In this document: piece after piece, positions 42,800 to 53,236 of the stretch | How positions within the stretch are numbered: position 1 is the stretch's first letter | Layout: each line of letters starts with the position of its first letter | NCBI RefSeq assembly: GCF_033095965.1 | Contig: NZ_AP026801.1 | Span: 682,001 to 746,000, forward strand | DNA: 64,000 nt | Direction of reading: 5' to 3' | Source of the DNA: Xylocopilactobacillus apis | Lineage (GTDB): Bacteria; Bacillota; Bacilli; Lactobacillales; Lactobacillaceae | Notes under the pieces: model-generated | Databases searched by the model: none | Told to the model about the DNA's origin: nothing | The model's input: the letters and a program-made list of their open reading frames with translations, nothing else | Program-made: the position numbers and the translations under genes

Positions 42800-45700
42800 A
42801 TGAGAAAATTTGTGAAAAAAATATCATTTTTTGATTTTGTTTCTTTATATAACGACGAAAAGAATCAGAATGTAGCAAATGAAGTCAATGGTAGCGTTTC
42901 CAGGGGGGGGCGTTTAGCTAACCCTCTAAAATTTATTTTTGCGCATCATAGAAGAATTGGATTAATGACCGTAATGATGATTGCGGTCTTTTTGTGTGTT
43001 TTGACGGGGGTAAAACGGGTTGATGCATTTGTTGGTACACCATTGCCTCAATCCCCAATGGTTAGCACGGATTTAACAACCCAATTAGATGGGAAATATG
43101 CTTTTTCTCCAGTTGTGAGTTCACAGACAAGAGTAATTACTACTTCGATTAACAATTGTACAATTAAGCTGTATGAACCAAGTCTTAATGTCCCTAACAT
43201 GCCTGCTGATATTTCGAAGGTTTATGTAATGTGGCCAACTGCAGGTTCTAATGGTAACATGCAAGCTAAATTTACTTATACTAACGTTGGATTTGATAAT
43301 TTAGGTAGATCCATTGATGTAGTAACCACTGTTACTACCACTAATTCTAATAAGTATGCACTTGTTTTGCCAATTGGAGCTGTTACGACTAGTAATGTTA
43401 TTCCCGGGCAAATGAGCGCTCAAGCTAAGTTAAATTTTGTGTTACACGGAACTAACACTCCGGCAACAGTTTCAGGTGGTCATTTGACCTTTGGTCCAAT
43501 TAATAGTGCAAAAATTGTATCCTTAAATACAGATAATTTTACAAAAATTTATACTAGAAGCGACACAATTATTCAGTATGCTCCGGGGTCAGGAGGTTTA
43601 ACAGATTTTTCTAGTGATGTATGGAAAATTGATGAAACTGCGAGACTTACTGCAATTTTTGAAAATAAATCTGAGTTTCAATATGGTTTTACCACAAAAC
43701 CTTATGAATTGGCTTATATAGGAAGTGGTTTTCTTTTAGGGTCGATAGTTAATATCGCAATGCCAAATCCAAATAAAGCTGGAAATGATGAAAGCTTAGA
43801 TCCGCTTATAGATGCATCCGCTCAAACTTTACCGTTAAATAATGAATTATTAACTGAAAACAAAAAAGAAGAATCATTTTTAACACCAAGAATTAATCCC
43901 AATCTAGCTACTGTTCAACCGGGACAGGTTAGAACGCTTTATTCAGTTACCCAAATTTTAACGTACCCGCAATCAACAGCCGATTATTTAACTAGATATC
44001 AAATTGATGATAACTTGAATCCAGCTTGGAAAGTTAATCCAACCGATATCATGGTAACCGATGAAGACAATAATAATGTAACTGCCAAATTTAATATTAG
44101 TATTGATACCTTAAATCATTTGATAATTGCGGCTAAACCGACAGAGTTGAGTAAGGCTGATTTCTATGGCACAGCGGGACATATTTTTACTTTTCTGATT
44201 AAAGGAAGTGTCGATAGAAGTAAAATTACAACTTGGCAGCCGCAGCTGCAGCCGACAGCCGATCCTCAGAATTTTTATTTGGGTTATCCCAATACGGCAA
44301 CGTTTACTTATCAGGTGGGGACAAATCCAGTAACTACAGGAAGTACAAATACAGTAACCAATAAAATTTTGGTTTATAAGCCGACAGTAACAACCGATCA
44401 GCCAAGCTATAACGGTGATCACGCAACGATAACAGGTAAAGTAAATAATCGCTACACGGGAACTGCAGCCAATCCAGCGTATCTGGACTTTTACATCACC
44501 TATAAAAGCAATACAGGTCTCACTAAAACAGTTCCATGGAATTTAAAGAATCCGACGACGTTAGTTCAAAATCGATTAATAACCAATACAGCAGGAGTTG
44601 ACCAAGCGTGGACGGCACAGCTGCCGAGTGATATGGGTTATGGGAACTTATCTTCTTATAACCAAACGGTGACAGTGACGGTGAAGGATCAGGAGGGGAT
44701 GAGCAGTCAAGCGACGTTTATTGTTGGAAGCTGGTGGAATTTTAATGCAGCAACGAATGTTTTGACGATTTATCCGCATGAACTTAATTTTGATAAAGAT
44801 CACGTTAACTTCACGAGTTCTGAGGGTAAACCCACTTCAGACTGGCCGTGGTATCAAAAAGACAGTCAGATTGTCAAAACAGTTATTTCCCCGGGGGTCA
44901 CAGCCAAGGATTCACTGTTTGGACTTTTTAATAAAATGAGTGCAATGACTGCAATTGAAGGTCTTACGCAGCTTGATACCAGTGAAGTAATCAACATGAA
45001 CTCGATGTTTTCTTCGTGTTCATCGCTACCGGTCTTGGATGTAACCCATTTTAATACAATTAAAGTGACAGATATGTCAAGTATGTTCAGTTACTGCAGT
45101 CAGCTCACCAATTTGGATGTAACTCACTTTAACACTAGTAATGTGGATAACATGGCAGCGATGTTTAAGGAGTGTAATAACCTAACAAGCTTAGATGTGA
45201 CGAAATTTGATACAAGTAAGGTACTCAATATGTCAGCAATGTTTATGAGCTGTAAGAAATTAACAAGCTTAGATGTAACGCAATTTAACACGAGTCAGGT
45301 TACGGATATGACTTCGATGTTTTTTGAATGTACCTCGTTACCGACTATAAATTTAAATAATTTTACTACAAACAGCGTATTGGATATGAGTTCGATGTTT
45401 GGTTTTTGTACTGGGTTAACATCATTAGATCTGAGAAGTTTCAATACAACAAATGTCACACGGATGTTAGGCATGTTTCAACTCTGTCGGTCACTGACCG
45501 ATCTTAAGATAGATCAAGCTAAATTTAAAACCATTAATGTGACAACAATGGAGAATATGTTTAATGGGTGTGCAGCGATAACAAAGTTAGACGTAGGTGG
45601 TTTTAACACGGAGAAAGTGAACAACTTCAATTCAATGTTTTCAGGGTGCAGCAAGTTAAAGACTTTAGATTTAAAGAATTTCAACACGAAGCGGGTATAT

Positions 45701-46426
45701 AGTGATTACCGCAAGGCAATGTTAGCCAATACGCCGAAGCTGTGGAAGATAACGTTTGGACCGAACTTTATTCTAGAAGATTATGTTGAAGGGAACAAAT
45801 TAAAGGATCCAACGGTAGGGGGAGATGATGGTAAGATCTATGATGATGATATCCCCAATCGCGTGTTTTATGTAACAAATCCACAGTGGAGAGAAGTAGG
45901 AACTGGGAGCGCGCACGAACCAAAGGGAAATGCGCTCAATGTAACTCAAATGATGAATGAATCGGCAGTGAGAAATGATACTAGAACGTATGTATGGGAT
46001 CAGTTGGGAACTCAGACATTAGAGGCAGAAGCAGGAAATATAGACTTAGGGACTCATGCGGGGTATTTAAGTAATCAAGAATACAAGAGTACGGCACAGA
46101 ACTTAAAGATGACCGACAACCGCAATAGTGAAGTTAACAAGCAGTGGCATATCGAGGCAGCGGTAACGAAAGCGTTTGCTTTGGCAACAAATTCGACAAA
46201 GAAAATTAGTGGAGATCCGTTATATTATCATGATACAACTTCAGGGACGACTACCCACTTAACAGCAACAGGCCAGGCTATCTATAGTGGGACCAGGAGT
46301 GATAATCAACCTGACACCAAGATCTATCCGTGGACGTTAAGTTTTAAAGCAAGTCCAAGTGATATCCCGAGTGCAGGGAGATATAATGCGACCGTAACAT
46401 TTACGTTAGTGAATGACACACCTTAA
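42800..46426 (+). CDS. BspA-like (DUF285) surface protein with WxL-like C-terminus, phase-variable, ON
   Basis: 1208 residues from ATG 42800. A 35-residue N-terminal part carries a run of 8 G (42903-42910) that keeps the frame open. The signal/membrane segment follows only at about residues 58-75 ('GLMTVMMIAVFLCVLTG'), so the N-region is unusually long. Residues ~75-700 are beta-rich domains, some resembling pilin/isopeptide adhesin modules. Residues ~715-980 are DUF285 repeats of about 25 residues ('LDVTHFNTS.V..M..MF..C..LT'). The C-terminal ~140 residues hold 'QWHIEAAV' and 'PWTLSF', the two W-x-I/L motifs of a WxL cell-wall binding domain. Adhesion or host contact is the likely role. A slip in the G run would silence it. 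Confidence 0.87.
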   Translation: MRKFVKKISFFDFVSLYNDEKNQNVANEVNGSVSRGGRLANPLKFIFAHHRRIGLMTVMMIAVFLCVLTGVKRVDAFVGTPLPQSPMVSTDLTTQLDGKYAFSPVVSSQTRVITTSINNCTIKLYEPSLNVPNMPADISKVYVMWPTAGSNGNMQAKFTYTNVGFDNLGRSIDVVTTVTTTNSNKYALVLPIGAVTTSNVIPGQMSAQAKLNFVLHGTNTPATVSGGHLTFGPINSAKIVSLNTDNFTKIYTRSDTIIQYAPGSGGLTDFSSDVWKIDETARLTAIFENKSEFQYGFTTKPYELAYIGSGFLLGSIVNIAMPNPNKAGNDESLDPLIDASAQTLPLNNELLTENKKEESFLTPRINPNLATVQPGQVRTLYSVTQILTYPQSTADYLTRYQIDDNLNPAWKVNPTDIMVTDEDNNNVTAKFNISIDTLNHLIIAAKPTELSKADFYGTAGHIFTFLIKGSVDRSKITTWQPQLQPTADPQNFYLGYPNTATFTYQVGTNPVTTGSTNTVTNKILVYKPTVTTDQPSYNGDHATITGKVNNRYTGTAANPAYLDFYITYKSNTGLTKTVPWNLKNPTTLVQNRLITNTAGVDQAWTAQLPSDMGYGNLSSYNQTVTVTVKDQEGMSSQATFIVGSWWNFNAATNVLTIYPHELNFDKDHVNFTSSEGKPTSDWPWYQKDSQIVKTVISPGVTAKDSLFGLFNKMSAMTAIEGLTQLDTSEVINMNSMFSSCSSLPVLDVTHFNTIKVTDMSSMFSYCSQLTNLDVTHFNTSNVDNMAAMFKECNNLTSLDVTKFDTSKVLNMSAMFMSCKKLTSLDVTQFNTSQVTDMTSMFFECTSLPTINLNNFTTNSVLDMSSMFGFCTGLTSLDLRSFNTTNVTRMLGMFQLCRSLTDLKIDQAKFKTINVTTMENMFNGCAAITKLDVGGFNTEKVNNFNSMFSGCSKLKTLDLKNFNTKRVYSDYRKAMLANTPKLWKITFGPNFILEDYVEGNKLKDPTVGGDDGKIYDDDIPNRVFYVTNPQWREVGTGSAHEPKGNALNVTQMMNESAVRNDTRTYVWDQLGTQTLEAEAGNIDLGTHAGYLSNQEYKSTAQNLKMTDNRNSEVNKQWHIEAAVTKAFALATNSTKKISGDPLYYHDTTSGTTTHLTATGQAIYSGTRSDNQPDTKIYPWTLSFKASPSDIPSAGRYNATVTFTLVNDTP
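42887..42922 (+). repeat. Poly-G phase-variation cassette, copy 1 (8 G)
   Basis: AATGGTAGCGTTTCCA, then 8 G (42903-42910), then CGTTTAGCTAAC. The same flanks, with 9 G, occur in the next gene (46703-46739). In this gene 8 G gives the open frame NGSVSRGGRLAN. Identity stops sharply at both ends. Confidence 0.92.
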
Positions 46427-46500: not shown

Positions 46501-46527
46501 TTGAAAAAACCCACTTTTTGATATAAT
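46501..46527 (+). promoter_or_regulatory. Promoter of the second BspA/WxL gene
   Basis: TTGAAA at 46501-46506 and TATAAT at 46522-46527 with TGA directly upstream (extended -10). The 15-base spacer is short. Intact promoter signals argue that the frameshifted gene is kept functional. Confidence 0.6.
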
Positions 46528-46570
46528 AAATCTAACTTTGTATAAATAAATCAATTTAGGGAGTGAGTTT

Positions 46571-49500
46571 ATGAACAAGTTAGTCAAAAGATTAGGATAT
46601 TTAATAGTAGTGATTGTGAGTATCGCGACTATTGGGATTGCTTTAAACAATAAACAAGAGAGTAAAGCAGCAGATTTTCCACAGAACACAGCGAATGTAA
46701 ATAATGGTAGCGTTTCCAGGGGGGGGGCGTTTAGCTAACAAGCTTACACCGAGTTTCAGTGATCCATTGAAACAATTATCACTCCCTAAAATACAGCCAA
46801 GAGGAATCTCATCAGTAATTAATTCAACAGTTGTAACTCCAGGCAGTTTTCAGATGACTGGTCAAAGCTATTGGAATGATACTGATAATCGTAACGATGT
46901 TAATTTAACATGGGTACCGCCGACAAACATTAGCGGGGGATACCATGTTGAGAAAGATACTAGTCCATCATTTACAACAGCAAATGAAATTGGGACTAAC
47001 TACGGTAAACATTTTAATATTTTAAACGTAGCACCTAAAACTGCAGCTGCTGAGACATGGTTTAAAAACTGGATGAAGATGACGAATGTTGATGGGACAG
47101 GTCCTGTAGATCAGGGCTTATTCAATATTACAACGGTATGGCTGAAAGATTTTAATGATAATCCAGGCATGCTTAAGAATCCAGATGGAACTTATAAGTA
47201 CGACAGTATCTTCTTTGGCGCGTCAGACTGGAATTCAGACAATTATGATCCAGACAATCAAGATTTGAATGAAGCTTCGTATCAAGCAACAAAAGCATTT
47301 GGAGATACCGGTCGAGCTATTACGATGGGCCATGATACCGTTGAGGGATTTGCTTGGACTGGTCTACCTAATGTGCCTTATCATACTTATTTTAATCGCT
47401 TTGCTTCATCTTTAGGGGTTCAAGTATCAGCTGATTACAAGCCAGTTGGTAGCGATAAGATTCAAGTGGCTACTCCAGGTTCACTAACAGAACAACCGTA
47501 TTTTTTGGATCCAACAGTGACTTATCAAGTGTCGCCTTCTCATAGTTTTTCTTCATATTTCATGTACAATTCAGGTGCTATAAGGTGGTTAAAGTATGAT
47601 CCTGCAAATATTACTTCGGGAAAATATGAAGAGTTAAAAGACGCTAACGGCAATGTTATTGGTGACAATAACTGGTATTTAGTGTCGAAAAATAATTACG
47701 CCCAGATTCAAACAGGCCATACTGTAAATCAATGTACGCCACAGGAAGCAGAAGTTATTTTCAACATGATTTACTATACGTCAAGTTTAAATACCAGTAC
47801 TAATGGTAAAGATATCATGACTAAAGATACTGCTGCTCCTAACGCACCGACGTTGGTATCAAGTTCAGTTGTTAATGATAATGCGAGTTTAAGAATTGAT
47901 GCCAACGACAATGCTACTGATTACTATTATCGAGCTCGCGCAGATACATCAGCAGGAAATGCGTATTCAGATATTATCAAAGTTCCGGTTATGAGTGGAA
48001 TGAGGGGATATGTTTATACAGTTGATGATAATCCAAATGGAAGTCCAACAATTGTAAGAGATCCCGCGACCCAAAAAGTAACAAATATTAATTTAATGCC
48101 AAATAGTGGTGGGACTGATGGAACGATTAATTTGACAAGAGCAGCAGATGCGGGAAAGTATCTTCATGTTGTAGCGGTGGATAACAATAGTAATGTATCA
48201 GCAGTAAAGACGATTAGCTTAAGTGAATACTTATGGTGGAAATATGAAAGTGGGACATTAACGATTTATCCCCATGTTTTAAATGCAAATGTTGACGCTC
48301 AACAGACTCATCCTGATCCAGATGATCCATATGATGACCTAGTTAAATGGCCTTGGAATGATTATTTATCTCAAATTCAAAAAGTTGTGATTAGTCCGGG
48401 AGTATCAGGAAACGACAATTTAATTCATTTATTTTATGGGATGACTAATCTAACCACAATTGAGGGTCTTGCTAATTTAGATACGAGCAAAGTAGTTAAT
48501 ATGTCTGGTGTTTTTGCTAAGTGTACAAGTTTAACTTCCCTTAACATTCCATGGGATACGAGTTCGGTTGTTTCACTGTATCGATTTTTGCGGGGTTGTA
48601 CAAGTTTAACCAGTGTTAAATTTGGTCCAGCGTTTAAAACTAGTAATGTAACTAGTTTCGGTGGCATGTTTATTTCAGATACATCCTTAACCGATTTAGA
48701 TATTAGTAAATTTGATACCAAAAATGCGTTTGATTTTGATTCAATGATTTCAAATTGTTATTCATTGGAACAAGTTGATGTAAGTCATTTTGATACTTCA
48801 AAAGCAACACAAATGAGATGGATGTTTTACGGAGATAAAAAATTAAAGTCCATTGATGTTAGTCATTTTGATACTAGTAAAGTTGTTGCAATGCCGGGAA
48901 TGTTTTTTGATTGTGAAGAGTTAACAAAACTTGATTTGAGTAGTTTTGATGTTTCAAAGGTAACTGATTTTAGATGGTTATTTGATAGTTGTTTAAATTT
49001 AACTAGCTTAGATTTATCAAATTTTAATATTCAATCTACAGCATCAACAACTTCTATGTTTCGATATACTAATAAACTATGGAAATTGACATTAGGAAAC
49101 GGAACTAAATTAGGAAGTGATACGTTGCTTGCTGATCCGACCGCAGGGACTCCGATTACTGATTTAGACAATCCAACACCAGTGTATTATGCGACTAATC
49201 CTCAGTGGCGGGAGGCGCTAACTCCGGCAACCGTTCATGCACCAACGGGAGCAGCAAGAACGGCAGCTCAGATTGCAACTGAATCACAAACTAGAACTGA
49301 TACAAGAACTTATGTTTGGGATCAGGTTGGTACTCAGACGTTAACATCAATACCAGGAAGTATTGATTTAGGGACCCATGCGGGATATTTAAAGAATCAG
49401 GAGTACATAAGTAGTGCTCAGAATTTAAAACGAACAGATAATCGGAATAGTAATGCAACAAGTCAGTGGCACATTGAGGCCGCGGTAACGAAGCCGTTCA

Positions 49501-49748
49501 CTCATACGACAGATTCAAGTAAAGTGATTAGTGGCGATCCGCTGTATTATCAGGACACTGACGGGGGCACAACGACTCATTTAACATCAACAGCTCAGAC
49601 TATCTATAACGGAACTAGAAGTGATAATCATCCTGAAGACAAGAACTATCCGTGGACATTAAGCTTTAAGGCAAATCCAAATGATATTCCGAAGGCTGGT
49701 ACTTACAATGCGTCGGTAACATTTACGTTAGTGAATGATATTCCTTAA
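46571..49748 (+). CDS. BspA-like (DUF285) surface protein with WxL-like C-terminus, phase-variable, OFF (frameshift at 9 G)
   Basis: The natural start is ATG 46571 after GGGAGTGAG, giving a good signal peptide ('YLIVVIVSIATIGIAL' then a likely AxA-type cleavage near 'SKAAD'). With 9 G at 46719-46727 this frame stops at 46736-46738 after 55 residues. With 8 G it would run on for 1058 residues to 49748. The downstream frame is fully open (from ATG 46704, which has no SD and no signal peptide). It holds an N-terminal domain with 'YDSIFFGASDWN' and 'AITMGHDTVEGFAW' (DUF5057-like, by resemblance), DUF285 repeats (about nt 48440-49080) and a WxL-like end with 'QWHIEAAV' and 'PWTLSF'. No other damage is seen across 3 kb, so this is a switched-off gene, not a decayed one. 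Confidence 0.85.
46703..46739 (+). repeat. Poly-G phase-variation cassette, copy 2 (9 G)
   Basis: Same 16-base and 12-base flanks as copy 1 around 9 G (46719-46727). The extra G shifts the signal-peptide frame into a TAA 8 bases after the run ends (46736-46738). Here the cassette lies after the signal peptide; in copy 1 it lies before the membrane segment. Confidence 0.92.
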
Positions 49749-49883: not shown

Positions 49884-49910
49884 TACATTAAGTAAATAGA
49901 TAACTTCTTC

Positions 49911-50031
49911 GGGGTCGGGTGTAATTCCCAATCGGCGGTAACAATTAAAATTGAAGTCCGCGACCTGCCTATGGCAGCTGATCCGGTGTGAGACCGGAAC
50001 CGACAGTTAAAGTCTGGATGGAAGAAGAAGT
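49911..50031 (+). ncRNA. FMN riboswitch aptamer (RFN element)
   Basis: Conserved blocks are in order: CTTCGGGGTCGGGTG, AATTCCCAATCGGCGGT, AAGTCCGCGACC, CCGGTGTGAGACCGGAACC, and GACAGTTAAAGTCTGGATG, closed by P1 (CTTCTTC near 49913 with GAAGAAG near 50021). FMN binding lowers expression of the riboflavin uptake genes downstream. The aptamer is followed by an 11-bp hairpin (50033-50060) and two terminators. Confidence 0.96.
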
Positions 50032-50076
50032 TTCTTCAATAAAATTTTATTTATTGAAGATTCTTCGTCGTGTACC

Positions 50077-50167: not shown

Positions 50168-50824
50168 ATGAAACGTGATCAGAGTTATATCCGATATTTA
50201 ACATTTTTAGCTGCTTTTGGGGCGCTAGCATATTTATCTACTTTTATTAAAATAAAAATGTTTTTCTTTTTAAGTTATGAACCAAAAGATGTAATTTTAA
50301 CAATTGGTGGGATGATATTTGGCCCGATTTTTGCAATTTTACTATCAGTTTTAGTACCATTTTTTGAGATGATTACAGTTAGTTCGACTGGAGCAATAGG
50401 TTTTGTTATGAATGTGATTGCTGCGATCTGTTTTGTCTTGCCGCCGGTCATTGCTTATTCCAGAAAAAAGAATGCAAAAAATTTAATTGTTGGATTAATA
50501 ATTGGAATTATCATGCAGACAATATCGATGCTGCTTTGGAATTATTTACTTTCTCCGATTTTCTTTGGTTACACTAGAGCATCAGTTGTTAAAATGTTAG
50601 TTCCAATTATTTTGCCGTTTAATTTAATCAAAGGCGGCCTAAATTCCTTGTTTACGGTTATTCTTTATCGGCCAGTAGTTGAGGCTTTAATGAAAGGTAA
50701 TGTGTTAAGAACAACTGATTTTAAGATGATTAACCATGAAGAAAAATGGACGGCTTTTGCAGTGATCTTCTTAGTGATTGCAACAGTTGCGCTATTGTTC
50801 ATGAGCTATTTTAAATTGATTTAG
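50168..50824 (+). CDS. ribU: Riboflavin ECF transporter S component
   Basis: 218 residues with six membrane segments. The region 'LSTFIKIKMFFFLSYEPKDVILTIGGMIFGPIFAILLSVLVPFFEMIT' followed by 'STGAIGFVMN' is typical of RibU and captures riboflavin. Control by an FMN riboswitch confirms the substrate. The start ATG follows AAGGAGAA. Three genes for an energising module follow directly, which is not the usual RibU setting. Confidence 0.94.
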   Translation: MKRDQSYIRYLTFLAAFGALAYLSTFIKIKMFFFLSYEPKDVILTIGGMIFGPIFAILLSVLVPFFEMITVSSTGAIGFVMNVIAAICFVLPPVIAYSRKKNAKNLIVGLIIGIIMQTISMLLWNYLLSPIFFGYTRASVVKMLVPIILPFNLIKGGLNSLFTVILYRPVVEALMKGNVLRTTDFKMINHEEKWTAFAVIFLVIATVALLFMSYFKLI

Positions 50825-50833
50825 GAGAATAAT

Positions 50834-51706
50834 TTGAACGCAACACCTTTGTTAGAAATACGTAATCTTAGTTATGCAGCTGAACAACTGATTAATCTGC
50901 AATTAGAAACTAAAAAGCAAGAAATTATTAACAATCTTAACTTTAGTATTTTTGAAGGAGAATTTGTGGGACTTGTCGGTCCTAATGGGTCGGGAAAAAC
51001 CACAATTAGTAAATTATTAACTCGCATTATTGAGCCAACAGGAGGGGAAATTTTACTCAATGGTATTAATTATGAGCAGATTGAACCTCAGTGGAAGCTG
51101 CACCATGAAATTAGTTTAGTGTTTCAAAATGTAGATTCGCAGTTTATTGCACCTAATTTTGTGGAAGATCTTAGTTTATATTTAGCTAATTTTGGCTGGA
51201 GCAAGGAAAAAATTAAAAGCAGAATGATGAAAATCGTTAATGAGTTGGGAATTGAGTCGATAATTAAGCAATCTTTTAAAACTTTATCAGGCGGTCAAAA
51301 ACAACTTTTAGCTATTGCAGAAGCCTTAGTATTAGAACCCAAAATCCTAATTTTAGATGAGCCTACAGCTCAGCTTGATCCAGAAAATTCTCAATTAGTA
51401 TATAAATTGATGCGAGAATTGCAGGAAAAAAGAAAAGTTACGATTCTTTTAATTACCCATAAATTAGCAGAGTTAGCTCTAACAAAACGAGTTTTAATTT
51501 TAAATCAAGGACAAATTACTAATAAAATTGAGACCAATGATCTTTTGCTTAATCCAAGTTTGTTAAAAGAAAATCAAATGCCAATTCCGATTACTGTTGA
51601 TATCATTAATCGCTTGGCTGATTTGATTAATGACCCCATTAGTCTCCAAGATTCGAGTTTAGCTACATTTATCAAAACAGTGGAAGAATTATATGTTAAC
51701 CGTTAA
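50834..51706 (+). CDS. ECF transporter ATPase (EcfA-type, first)
   Basis: 290 residues. Walker A 'GPNGSGKTT', Q-loop 'VFQNVDSQFIAPNFVEDL', signature 'LSGGQKQL' and Walker B 'ILILDEPTAQLD' with 'LITHKLAE'. The Q-loop 'FQN.D.Q' form is characteristic of EcfA ATPases. The start is TTG with AGGAG upstream. It overlaps the next gene by 14 bases. Confidence 0.9.
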   Translation: MNATPLLEIRNLSYAAEQLINLQLETKKQEIINNLNFSIFEGEFVGLVGPNGSGKTTISKLLTRIIEPTGGEILLNGINYEQIEPQWKLHHEISLVFQNVDSQFIAPNFVEDLSLYLANFGWSKEKIKSRMMKIVNELGIESIIKQSFKTLSGGQKQLLAIAEALVLEPKILILDEPTAQLDPENSQLVYKLMRELQEKRKVTILLITHKLAELALTKRVLILNQGQITNKIETNDLLLNPSLLKENQMPIPITVDIINRLADLINDPISLQDSSLATFIKTVEELYVNR

Positions 51707-52490
51707 AAATCTTAATTATCAAGTGTCAAAAAAGCATCCCTTTTTGTGGCATGATTTAAATTTTAGTTTAGAATTAGGCAAAATTTATACTTTAGTAGGG
51801 ATTAATGGAGTAGGAAAAACGACTCTGCTTAATCTTTTAAGCGGTCTTATTAAACCGACTAAAGGTGAAATCTATTTTGAGGATCAGCCGATTCATCAAT
51901 CAAAAGCGAGTTTACGAAATTACCTGACAAATGTTGGTTATTGTTTACAAAACGCAGAAAATTTATTTTTTAATCAAACGGTGGAAGAAGAACTTCAGTA
52001 TCATTATTCTGGAGATCTCACAGCAATTATTGAAGAACTTAAATTAGAATCTTTATTAAAGCAATCACCTTTTGAACTTTCAGGTGGGCAGCAAAAAAGG
52101 TTAGAGTTGGCAATCATGCTGCTAAAAAAGCCTAAAATTTTATTTTGTGATGAAATTACAGCTGGTCTTGATGCTAAAAATCTTCAATTAACTATGGATG
52201 AAATCAATTACTTTAAGTCTAATCACATTGTATTAATGGTTACTCATAATTTAAGTGAAGCCTTGACCTATGGAGATGAGTTTTTATTTTTAAAAAATGA
52301 TGGAATTGAACAGCAATCAAAAAAGCAGGTCTTGAGAAATCCCCATGTTTTTAAAAATGCTGGTTTAATTGATCCACCGACTATTGCAGTTTGTCAGGCA
52401 TTAATTAATCAAAAAATATTCTCAAAGGGGTCTTATTATAAAAGCAATCAAGAAATTGCTCAAGCATTGGCAGAAAAGGTGCTTTCATGA
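51693..52490 (+). CDS. ECF transporter ATPase (EcfA'-type, second)
   Basis: 265 residues. Walker A 'GINGVGKTT', signature 'LSGGQQKR' and Walker B 'ILFCDEITAGLD' with 'VTHNLSE'. Q-loop 'CLQNAENLFFNQTVEEEL'. It overlaps both neighbours (14 and 4 bases). With the previous gene it forms the ATPase pair under EcfT. Confidence 0.9.
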   Translation: MLTVKNLNYQVSKKHPFLWHDLNFSLELGKIYTLVGINGVGKTTLLNLLSGLIKPTKGEIYFEDQPIHQSKASLRNYLTNVGYCLQNAENLFFNQTVEEELQYHYSGDLTAIIEELKLESLLKQSPFELSGGQQKRLELAIMLLKKPKILFCDEITAGLDAKNLQLTMDEINYFKSNHIVLMVTHNLSEALTYGDEFLFLKNDGIEQQSKKQVLRNPHVFKNAGLIDPPTIAVCQALINQKIFSKGSYYKSNQEIAQALAEKVLS

Positions 52491-53236
52491 AATTAATTAA
52501 TCGAATCGATGGGCGCACAAAACTAATCACATGGATTTTGTTGACTCTTCTGATGTTTAATTTCCATTATTATTTCCAATATTTAGTTATGATTATACTT
52601 TTAGGATTGACTGTATTTACTGAATTAAATTCTTCTGAAAGAGGTCAAATTTTTCGTCACTGGAAACTGATCTTAATTTTGCCAATTTTAAACCTATTAA
52701 TTAATTTATTTTTTGTAAATGGTCCTGTTATTTGGCGTTGGGGCTGGTTAAAGTTAACTAATTTAGATTTACAAATTTTTATTCGTCTCATAATCCTTTT
52801 GATTTTGGCATTAGGTTTAATTGTTATAACGAGTCCAGAAGAAATGGCATTAGCTGTGGGAAAAATTGCACATGATATAACGCTTGGGCACTATAATGGT
52901 CTAGGCATTCCTTTAGTAATAATAATTATGTCGTCATTTATTAACGAATTTCAGGAGACATTTCGATCAGTTCGTTATGCTTATACTTTGCGTAATTCAA
53001 AAACTGATAGCAGTTATCTTAAAAGAGCAATGAATTATATTTTTATGCTTCAGCCGGTAATTTTAATTGCGCTTAGAAAAGCTGACCGAGTGTCTGATGC
53101 TTTAATTGCAAAAGGGTATCATCGAGGAGCACGTCTTTTTAATTATCAAGAGATTAAGTATCATCGGCGAGATTATTTAATCTATTTAGGTTTATTCATT
53201 TTTATCCTTTTTAACCAATTAAAATTTACATTTTAA
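52487..53236 (+). CDS. ECF transporter transmembrane subunit EcfT
   Basis: 249 residues with several membrane segments. The C-terminal coupling region reads 'RKADRVSDALIAKGYHRGARLFNY', matching the Ala-Arg-Gly-like coupling helix that grips the ATPases. ATGA overlap with the preceding gene. EcfT + two EcfA + RibU give a complete riboflavin importer in one FMN-controlled operon. Confidence 0.88.
   Translation: MKLINRIDGRTKLITWILLTLLMFNFHYYFQYLVMIILLGLTVFTELNSSERGQIFRHWKLILILPILNLLINLFFVNGPVIWRWGWLKLTNLDLQIFIRLIILLILALGLIVITSPEEMALAVGKIAHDITLGHYNGLGIPLVIIIMSSFINEFQETFRSVRYAYTLRNSKTDSSYLKRAMNYIFMLQPVILIALRKADRVSDALIAKGYHRGARLFNYQEIKYHRRDYLIYLGLFIFILFNQLKFTF

Follow-up and report, generated by a model that had tools for sequence, protein, structure and literature searches.

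Introduction

Campylobacter and Neisseria carry poly-G contingency tracts in many unrelated genes. Slippage at these simple repeats switches surface structures, and surface genes that vary by poly-G slippage are a familiar category. The described systems nearest to the present one in our searches are those of Mycoplasma agalactiae and Bifidobacterium breve. In M. agalactiae the PARCEL (DUF285-type) lipoproteins MAG1330 and MAG3260 have an N-terminal poly-G tract and were proposed to undergo frameshift phase variation (PMC2996958). In B. breve UCC2003, sortase-dependent pilus genes contain intragenic G-tracts at which slippage was measured and found to shift in the host (PMC9187656), and for the bee-associated Apilactobacillus kunkeei phase variation by DNA inversion was proposed for an LPxTG surface protein encoded beside a serine recombinase (PMC9648514). 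No poly-G phase variation in Lactobacillaceae was found in our literature searches, which reached few subscription journals.

The present study concerns a 64,000-nucleotide stretch of the Xylocopilactobacillus apis genome (the window; G+C 34.8%). X. apis KimC2 (2.27 Mbp, G+C 34.9%) and X. apicola XA3 (2.31 Mbp) were obtained from carpenter bees and PacBio-sequenced (PMC10433979). Four genomes of the genus were compared, namely that of the window (G000, 2,271,855 bases), a sister genome (G002, 2,311,735 bases) and two smaller ones, each about 85% complete (G001 and G003). An initial interpretation made from the letters of the window (the sequence-only reading) had described a surface-protein gene switched off by one extra G in a poly-G run, and had called such slippage unusual for WxL/BspA proteins in lactobacilli. 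For BspA-type proteins this judgement needs qualifying, given the poly-G tracts printed for the PARCEL (DUF285-type) lipoprotein genes of M. agalactiae (PMC2996958).

Like the M. agalactiae lipoproteins, the gene described here combines this repeat module with poly-G in the N-terminal coding part, but where the account of that species notes two lipoproteins found by curation, here the proteins are putatively secreted, belong to a lactic acid bacterium and are encoded by 24 copies in two genomes behind one cassette with twin stops (PMC2996958). An intragenic G-tract in a Gram-positive gut commensal is shared with B. breve, which is described as having tracts of about 9-12 G in two pilus operons (PMC9187656) rather than a large family of single genes with a common cassette. 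Phase variation of a surface protein is again proposed in a bee-associated lactobacillus, as in A. kunkeei, through G-run slippage instead of DNA inversion (PMC9648514). Compared with Campylobacter and Neisseria, the proteins are different and all long G-runs of the genome lie in one family. Three features are new: the cassette and its twin stops are common to the family, they occur in the sample only in two genomes, both of one genus, and gene bodies show an apparent joint-like exchange.

The window gene and its neighbour

The nine-G run and the early end of the frame from ATG 46571, both pointed out by the sequence-only reading, are present in the sequence (Table 1), and as assembled the translation from this ATG is MNKLVKRLGYLIVVIVSIATIGIALNNKQESKAADFPQNTANVNNGSVSRGGAFS. 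With one G fewer the frame extends to 1058 aa, exactly as had been predicted, whereas runs of 7 or 10 G give 53-54 aa. Beyond the run the body continues for 1006 codons without a further stop, so that the claim of no other defect in 3 kb holds. AGGGAG precedes the ATG, in agreement with the Shine-Dalgarno sequence that had been proposed. The extended -10 element that had been described is likewise visible in the sequence, although the promoter is missing from the list produced by a simple -35/-10 scan; start region and promoter recur near-identically before three more cassette genes (G000 1565357, 1577743 and 1681989).

Table 1 Coordinates of features in the window
Feature	Position	Strand	Basis or content
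Extended -10 of the window gene, TGaTATAAT	46519-46527	+	Sequence
Ribosome-binding region, TTTAGGGAGTGAG ahead of ATG	46555-46570	+	Sequence
Frame as sequenced, OFF, 55 aa	46571-46738	+	Signal-peptide-like leader (by eye) and cassette; TAA 46736-46738 ends the frame
Poly-G cassette of the window gene, AATGGTAGCGTTTCCA-(G)9-CGTTTAGCTAAC	46703-46739	+	Wrong-register stops TAG 46732-46734 and TAA 46736-46738
Nine-G run	46719-46727	+	Sequence
Surface-protein body, frame out of reach as assembled	46728-49748	+	N-terminal region, DUF285/PARCEL leucine-rich repeats, conserved C-terminal domain
Neighbouring family gene, ON, 1208 aa, 8 G	42800-46426	+	Frame, cassette, Pfam
Second window cassette, eight G at 42903-42910	42887-42922	+	Precedes a hydrophobic segment instead of trailing one

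The initial framing around a single gene requires correction: the window gene belongs to a family, and the adjacent upstream gene has a cassette too, in the ON state. At 42800-43030 this neighbour looks like a cassette leader fused ahead of another gene's signal peptide. A layout resembling its cassette-before-hydrophobic order, but unfused, is seen in the sister genome (G002:1811432, L100).

In the window gene, a perfect 12-nt complementarity between the ribosome-binding region (46555-46566) and the early body (46779-46790) could hide the start site in the RNA. RNA pairing was dropped as a general mechanism because it is present in 2 of the 24 copies, and these two are almost identical to one another in that region.

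Distribution and structure of the cassette

Runs of at least 8 G number 11 in G000 and 13 in G002, with none in G001 or G003. All of them (11/11 and 13/13) sit in the cassette near a gene start, which in 23 of 24 cases is that of a DUF285/BspA-type gene. An exact match search of G000 with the window gene's own version of the cassette returned six copies, and a search with the leader gave 15 matches (14 loci) in G000, 20 in G002 and none in the two less complete genomes. Simple Markov models fitted to the window predict about 4-7 runs of at least 8 G/C in 2.27 Mb, so the 11 seen are no large excess; the count alone is unremarkable, and the evidence lies in the concentration of the runs in one gene family at the same place. 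Exact 7-G runs occur four times in G000, the nearest 35 kb from a cassette.

The pattern ARCGWTTNCAGGGGGGG matched 2 of 397 Lactobacillaceae genomes, G000 and G002, with 11 and 13 copies, and a reversed control pattern had no match in either; the pattern is strict, and poly-G systems with other flanks may therefore exist among the 397. Scans of a collection of genome contigs gave no match to the cassette pattern and, for the shared C-terminal domain, 11 candidate stretches of which none was confirmed. This domain has 30 matches in G000 and 32 in G002, partial ones included, which puts the cassette on roughly two in five family genes. At most one such domain was seen in G001 and G003. Two pairs of C-terminal domains in G000 (C1 2141886/2187221 and 20153/2169163) have equal scores within each pair and are possibly recent duplications.

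The consensus cassette reads AATGGTAGCG[A/T]TT[T/C]CA-(G)8-10-C[G/A]TTTAGCTAAC, and nine of the 14 bases preceding the run are identical in all 24 copies. In frame it mostly encodes GSDFRGG or GSVSRGG, followed by [R/H]LAN or similar. Its RGG is written with AGG and GGG, a rare spelling: in 33 other frames of the window AGG makes up 3% of Arg and GGG 15% of Gly codons, and in the family bodies the shares are 6% and 17%. Stops for both wrong registers lie at most 11 bases past the run in 23 of the copies and 17 bases past it in the remaining one, compared with 8% of random body points that have stops in both wrong registers within 15 bases. The second of these stops is TAA in 18 copies, TAG in three and TGA in two, the remaining copy being laid out differently; a stop is thus preserved at this place even though its spelling, and with it the residue, varies. 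The copies are related, and the conserved cassette and codons are accordingly not 24 independent events.

Assembled states of the tract genes

A single register opens a frame of 869-1358 aa in 23 of the 24 copies. As assembled, eight copies are ON, 15 are OFF and one has another layout. G000 has five ON genes (8 G) and six OFF genes (9 G), and G002 has three ON (two with 8 G and one with 9 G, owing to its differing flank), nine OFF and the copy of other layout. Run lengths of 8, 9 and 10 thus occur among paralogues and between genomes, with the ten-G copies in G002. The exceptional copy, G002 1811432, has no register that gives a long frame; its tract frame continues for 116 residues and ends ahead of another gene, which has a leader to itself.

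As controls, we took 12 leader-bearing paralogues without a G-run (four in G000 and eight in G002; within the first 400 bases their G-runs reach 5 at most), all of which are open for at least 429 residues from the leader. Breakage at the tract in 15 of 24 tract genes compares with breakage near the leader in none of these 12 (Fisher p 0.0003). In one G-run-free paralogue (L102, G002:C1 ~101600), ASDFKGALDN stands against ASDFRGG in a cassette relative at 214052, which suggests that L102 once had a cassette, has since been deprived of the G-run and is now permanently open.

Three hallmarks of poly-G contingency genes are found here: a homopolymeric tract positioned such that the reading frame depends on its length, lengths that differ among paralogues and between two genomes, and OFF copies that are intact in 15 of 15 cases and, judging by dN/dS in the pairs tested (below), apparently under selection. 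The best explanation, which we consider very probable, is an adhesin repertoire in which each copy has its own poly-G phase variation. The genes would form a family of large secreted repeat proteins, many of them with an individual contingency switch consisting of the short conserved cassette just after a hydrophobic leader segment (before one in the neighbour gene). Replication slippage at the G-run would change its length by one in either direction; one register would yield a protein of about 870-1360 residues, and the two others would soon end at the stops that the cassette provides for each of them, a few codons on. Since at least four copies have near-identical promoters, the choice of proteins that a cell displays would fall to the G-runs and not to the promoters, and cells with different surfaces would coexist in a population. 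We infer slippage as the cause, switching over time and display on the surface, as well as a function in adhesion or in escape from phages or the host.

The reversible OFF state put forward by the sequence-only reading is thereby supported from a 24-gene family with lengths of 8, 9 and 10, ON and OFF members, open OFF bodies and apparent purifying selection, and this family evidence goes beyond what one gene could give. Against the phase-variation explanation count the modest length of the G-runs, 8-9 G where tracts in B. breve were measured at about 9-12 G, the misfit of G002 1811432, the relatedness of the copies and the ordinary decay also seen in the family (below). A further point against it is that MutS is present in all four genus genomes; slippage is therefore not raised by MutS loss, and mismatch-repair loss was rejected as a driver.

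Assembly error and slippage at expression as rival explanations

The main worry for the ON/OFF calls is assembly error, in which case the strain would truly have 8 G and the window gene would simply be ON. Long-read assemblies are known to be unreliable in the length of homopolymers. The G000 and G002 assemblies are probably PacBio RSII/Sequel products (PMC10433979). An individual G count may be one too high or too low. Nevertheless, we judge this reading unlikely, as runs of nine G are found repeatedly in both genomes and runs of ten in G002, 43 A/T runs of at least 7 lie inside 38 open frames of the window (the survey covered open frames only), and 23 of 24 family bodies are unbroken. An error of this kind would alter single lengths, not the existence of the tract or of the twin stops.

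Programmed slippage at expression would leave the tract to set a level rather than an ON/OFF state, with RNA polymerase or the ribosome slipping so that 9-G and 10-G genes yield some full-length protein. Long G-runs can slip in transcription, and with 9 G the body frame can also be entered from ATG 46704, which lies within the cassette, though without the signal peptide. No ribosome-binding site is visible in the sequence before this ATG, however, a fixed programmed site does not need lengths that differ from copy to copy, and the paired wrong-register stops are what a tightly closed OFF state would call for; this mechanism appears quite improbable.

Selection on bodies and their apparent exchange

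Two OFF genes with 9 G each, G000:1828947 and G002:337221, are 93.6% identical over 3057 bases without a gap, and over 1018 codons they have dS 0.27, dN 0.025 and dN/dS 0.09. G000:1888297 (9 G) and G002:1729317 (10 G), the other pair in which both genes are OFF, have dS 0.18 and dN/dS 0.32, and OFF genes compared with ON paralogues gave dN/dS of 0.20-0.21 in two pairs. These values support purifying selection on OFF bodies in the pairs tested. For IleRS, the sole core gene compared, G000 and G002 share 78% DNA identity at dS 1.73; against this value, the dS of 0.27 and 0.18 suggest that the two bodies passed between the species at some time after these had diverged. In both pairs similarity starts shortly before the run, at 27 and 67 bases, and the DNA upstream is unrelated. 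Within G000, the genes at 728719 and 1681989 share about 550 bases from the promoter through the early body at roughly 80-100% identity, followed by mostly 45-80%, and over 276 gene pairs leader and body similarity are weakly correlated (r 0.27). We read these patterns as modular exchange with the cassette as a frequent joint, the two clear cross-species cases being few.

The same observations could mean that the cassette owes its conservation mainly to service as a recombination joint, at which bodies are swapped under a resident leader and promoter while the G-run is incidental. Low divergence of the two cross-genome bodies, the positions at which their similarity begins and the loose coupling of leader and body would all suit this reading. 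A joint, however, needs neither an unbroken G-run nor twin stops, yet none of the 24 copies has lost either, the second stop remaining a stop in spite of its varied spelling; we regard this account as very unlikely. A tentative possibility, which we think more doubtful than not, is that the cassette is a socket that acts both as ON/OFF switch and as recombination joint, so that new adhesin bodies, some from other species, recombine behind a resident promoter, leader and G-run and come under immediate phase control. If true, this would amount to a combinatorial surface system with exchangeable bodies and one conserved element of about 37 bases.

That the extra G is a dead-end frameshift in a fixed pseudogene is hardly credible: the assembled frame is broken, and the break mid-body in the control paralogue G002 1537980, which has no G-run, shows that ordinary decay also occurs in the family, but 1006 codons without another stop, full bodies in all 15 OFF genes and dN/dS of 0.09 and 0.32 in the pairs OFF in both genomes argue against it.

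An invertible-DNA switch was rejected, as there are no suitable inverted repeats around the switched segment: repeats of at least 12 are absent from the 501-base stretch around the first cassette, and that around the second (501 bases) has one 12-nt pair, formed by the ribosome site and the early body. Phage origin was rejected on finding no match to the cassette pattern in viral contigs, a set from which records near the window's genome may be left out.

Implications of the proposed switchable repertoire

If the phase-variation explanation is correct, each genome would have up to 11-13 independently switchable surface proteins, in principle 2^11 combinations, in a genus of probable bee-gut symbionts. 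Genes annotated as frameshifted in G000 and G002 may then be functional. A G-run followed by twin stops offers a usable signature for genome scans.

Protein domains, predicted structure and downstream region

The DUF285 repeats assigned to the body by the sequence-only reading were recovered (E 5.9e-40), and the window gene scored 136 bits with PF03382 (cut-off 25) and 139 bits with TIGR02167 (cut-off 30), as a DUF285/PARCEL protein would. PF03382 matched all 23 scanned bodies, with L092 and L096 below the cut-off and L013, L090, L093 and L094 listed without scores; TIGR02167 was scanned in five genes, one of which fell below the cut-off. The WxL-like end that had also been suggested is weakly supported, since neither the body nor its last 182 aa matched the Pfam WxL domain (PF13731, gathering score 25 bits) at E up to 1; in relatives matches stayed below the cut-off, at 19.6 and 18.3 bits, and also in two of the nine members of set A3. 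The L-type lectin domain PF18483 was found in 8 of 23 scanned bodies, six above and two just below the cut-off. These lectin domains make it testable whether phase variation serves host or niche specificity or acts against phages in a solitary-bee symbiont.

An AlphaFold model had a mean pLDDT of 72 and a pTM of 0.47, the leucine-rich part being its best part. Two matches with E below 0.001 came from a PDB fold search with the model, each of them a chain of TLR9 (5zln), and a PDB sequence search returned matches named leucine-rich proteins, plus one chain labelled tubulin.

The open reading frames at 50168-53236, which resemble a riboflavin ECF transporter set, follow an FMN riboswitch. The riboswitch occupies positions 49901-50033 of the window, directly after the window gene (Rfam RF00050, 119 bits).
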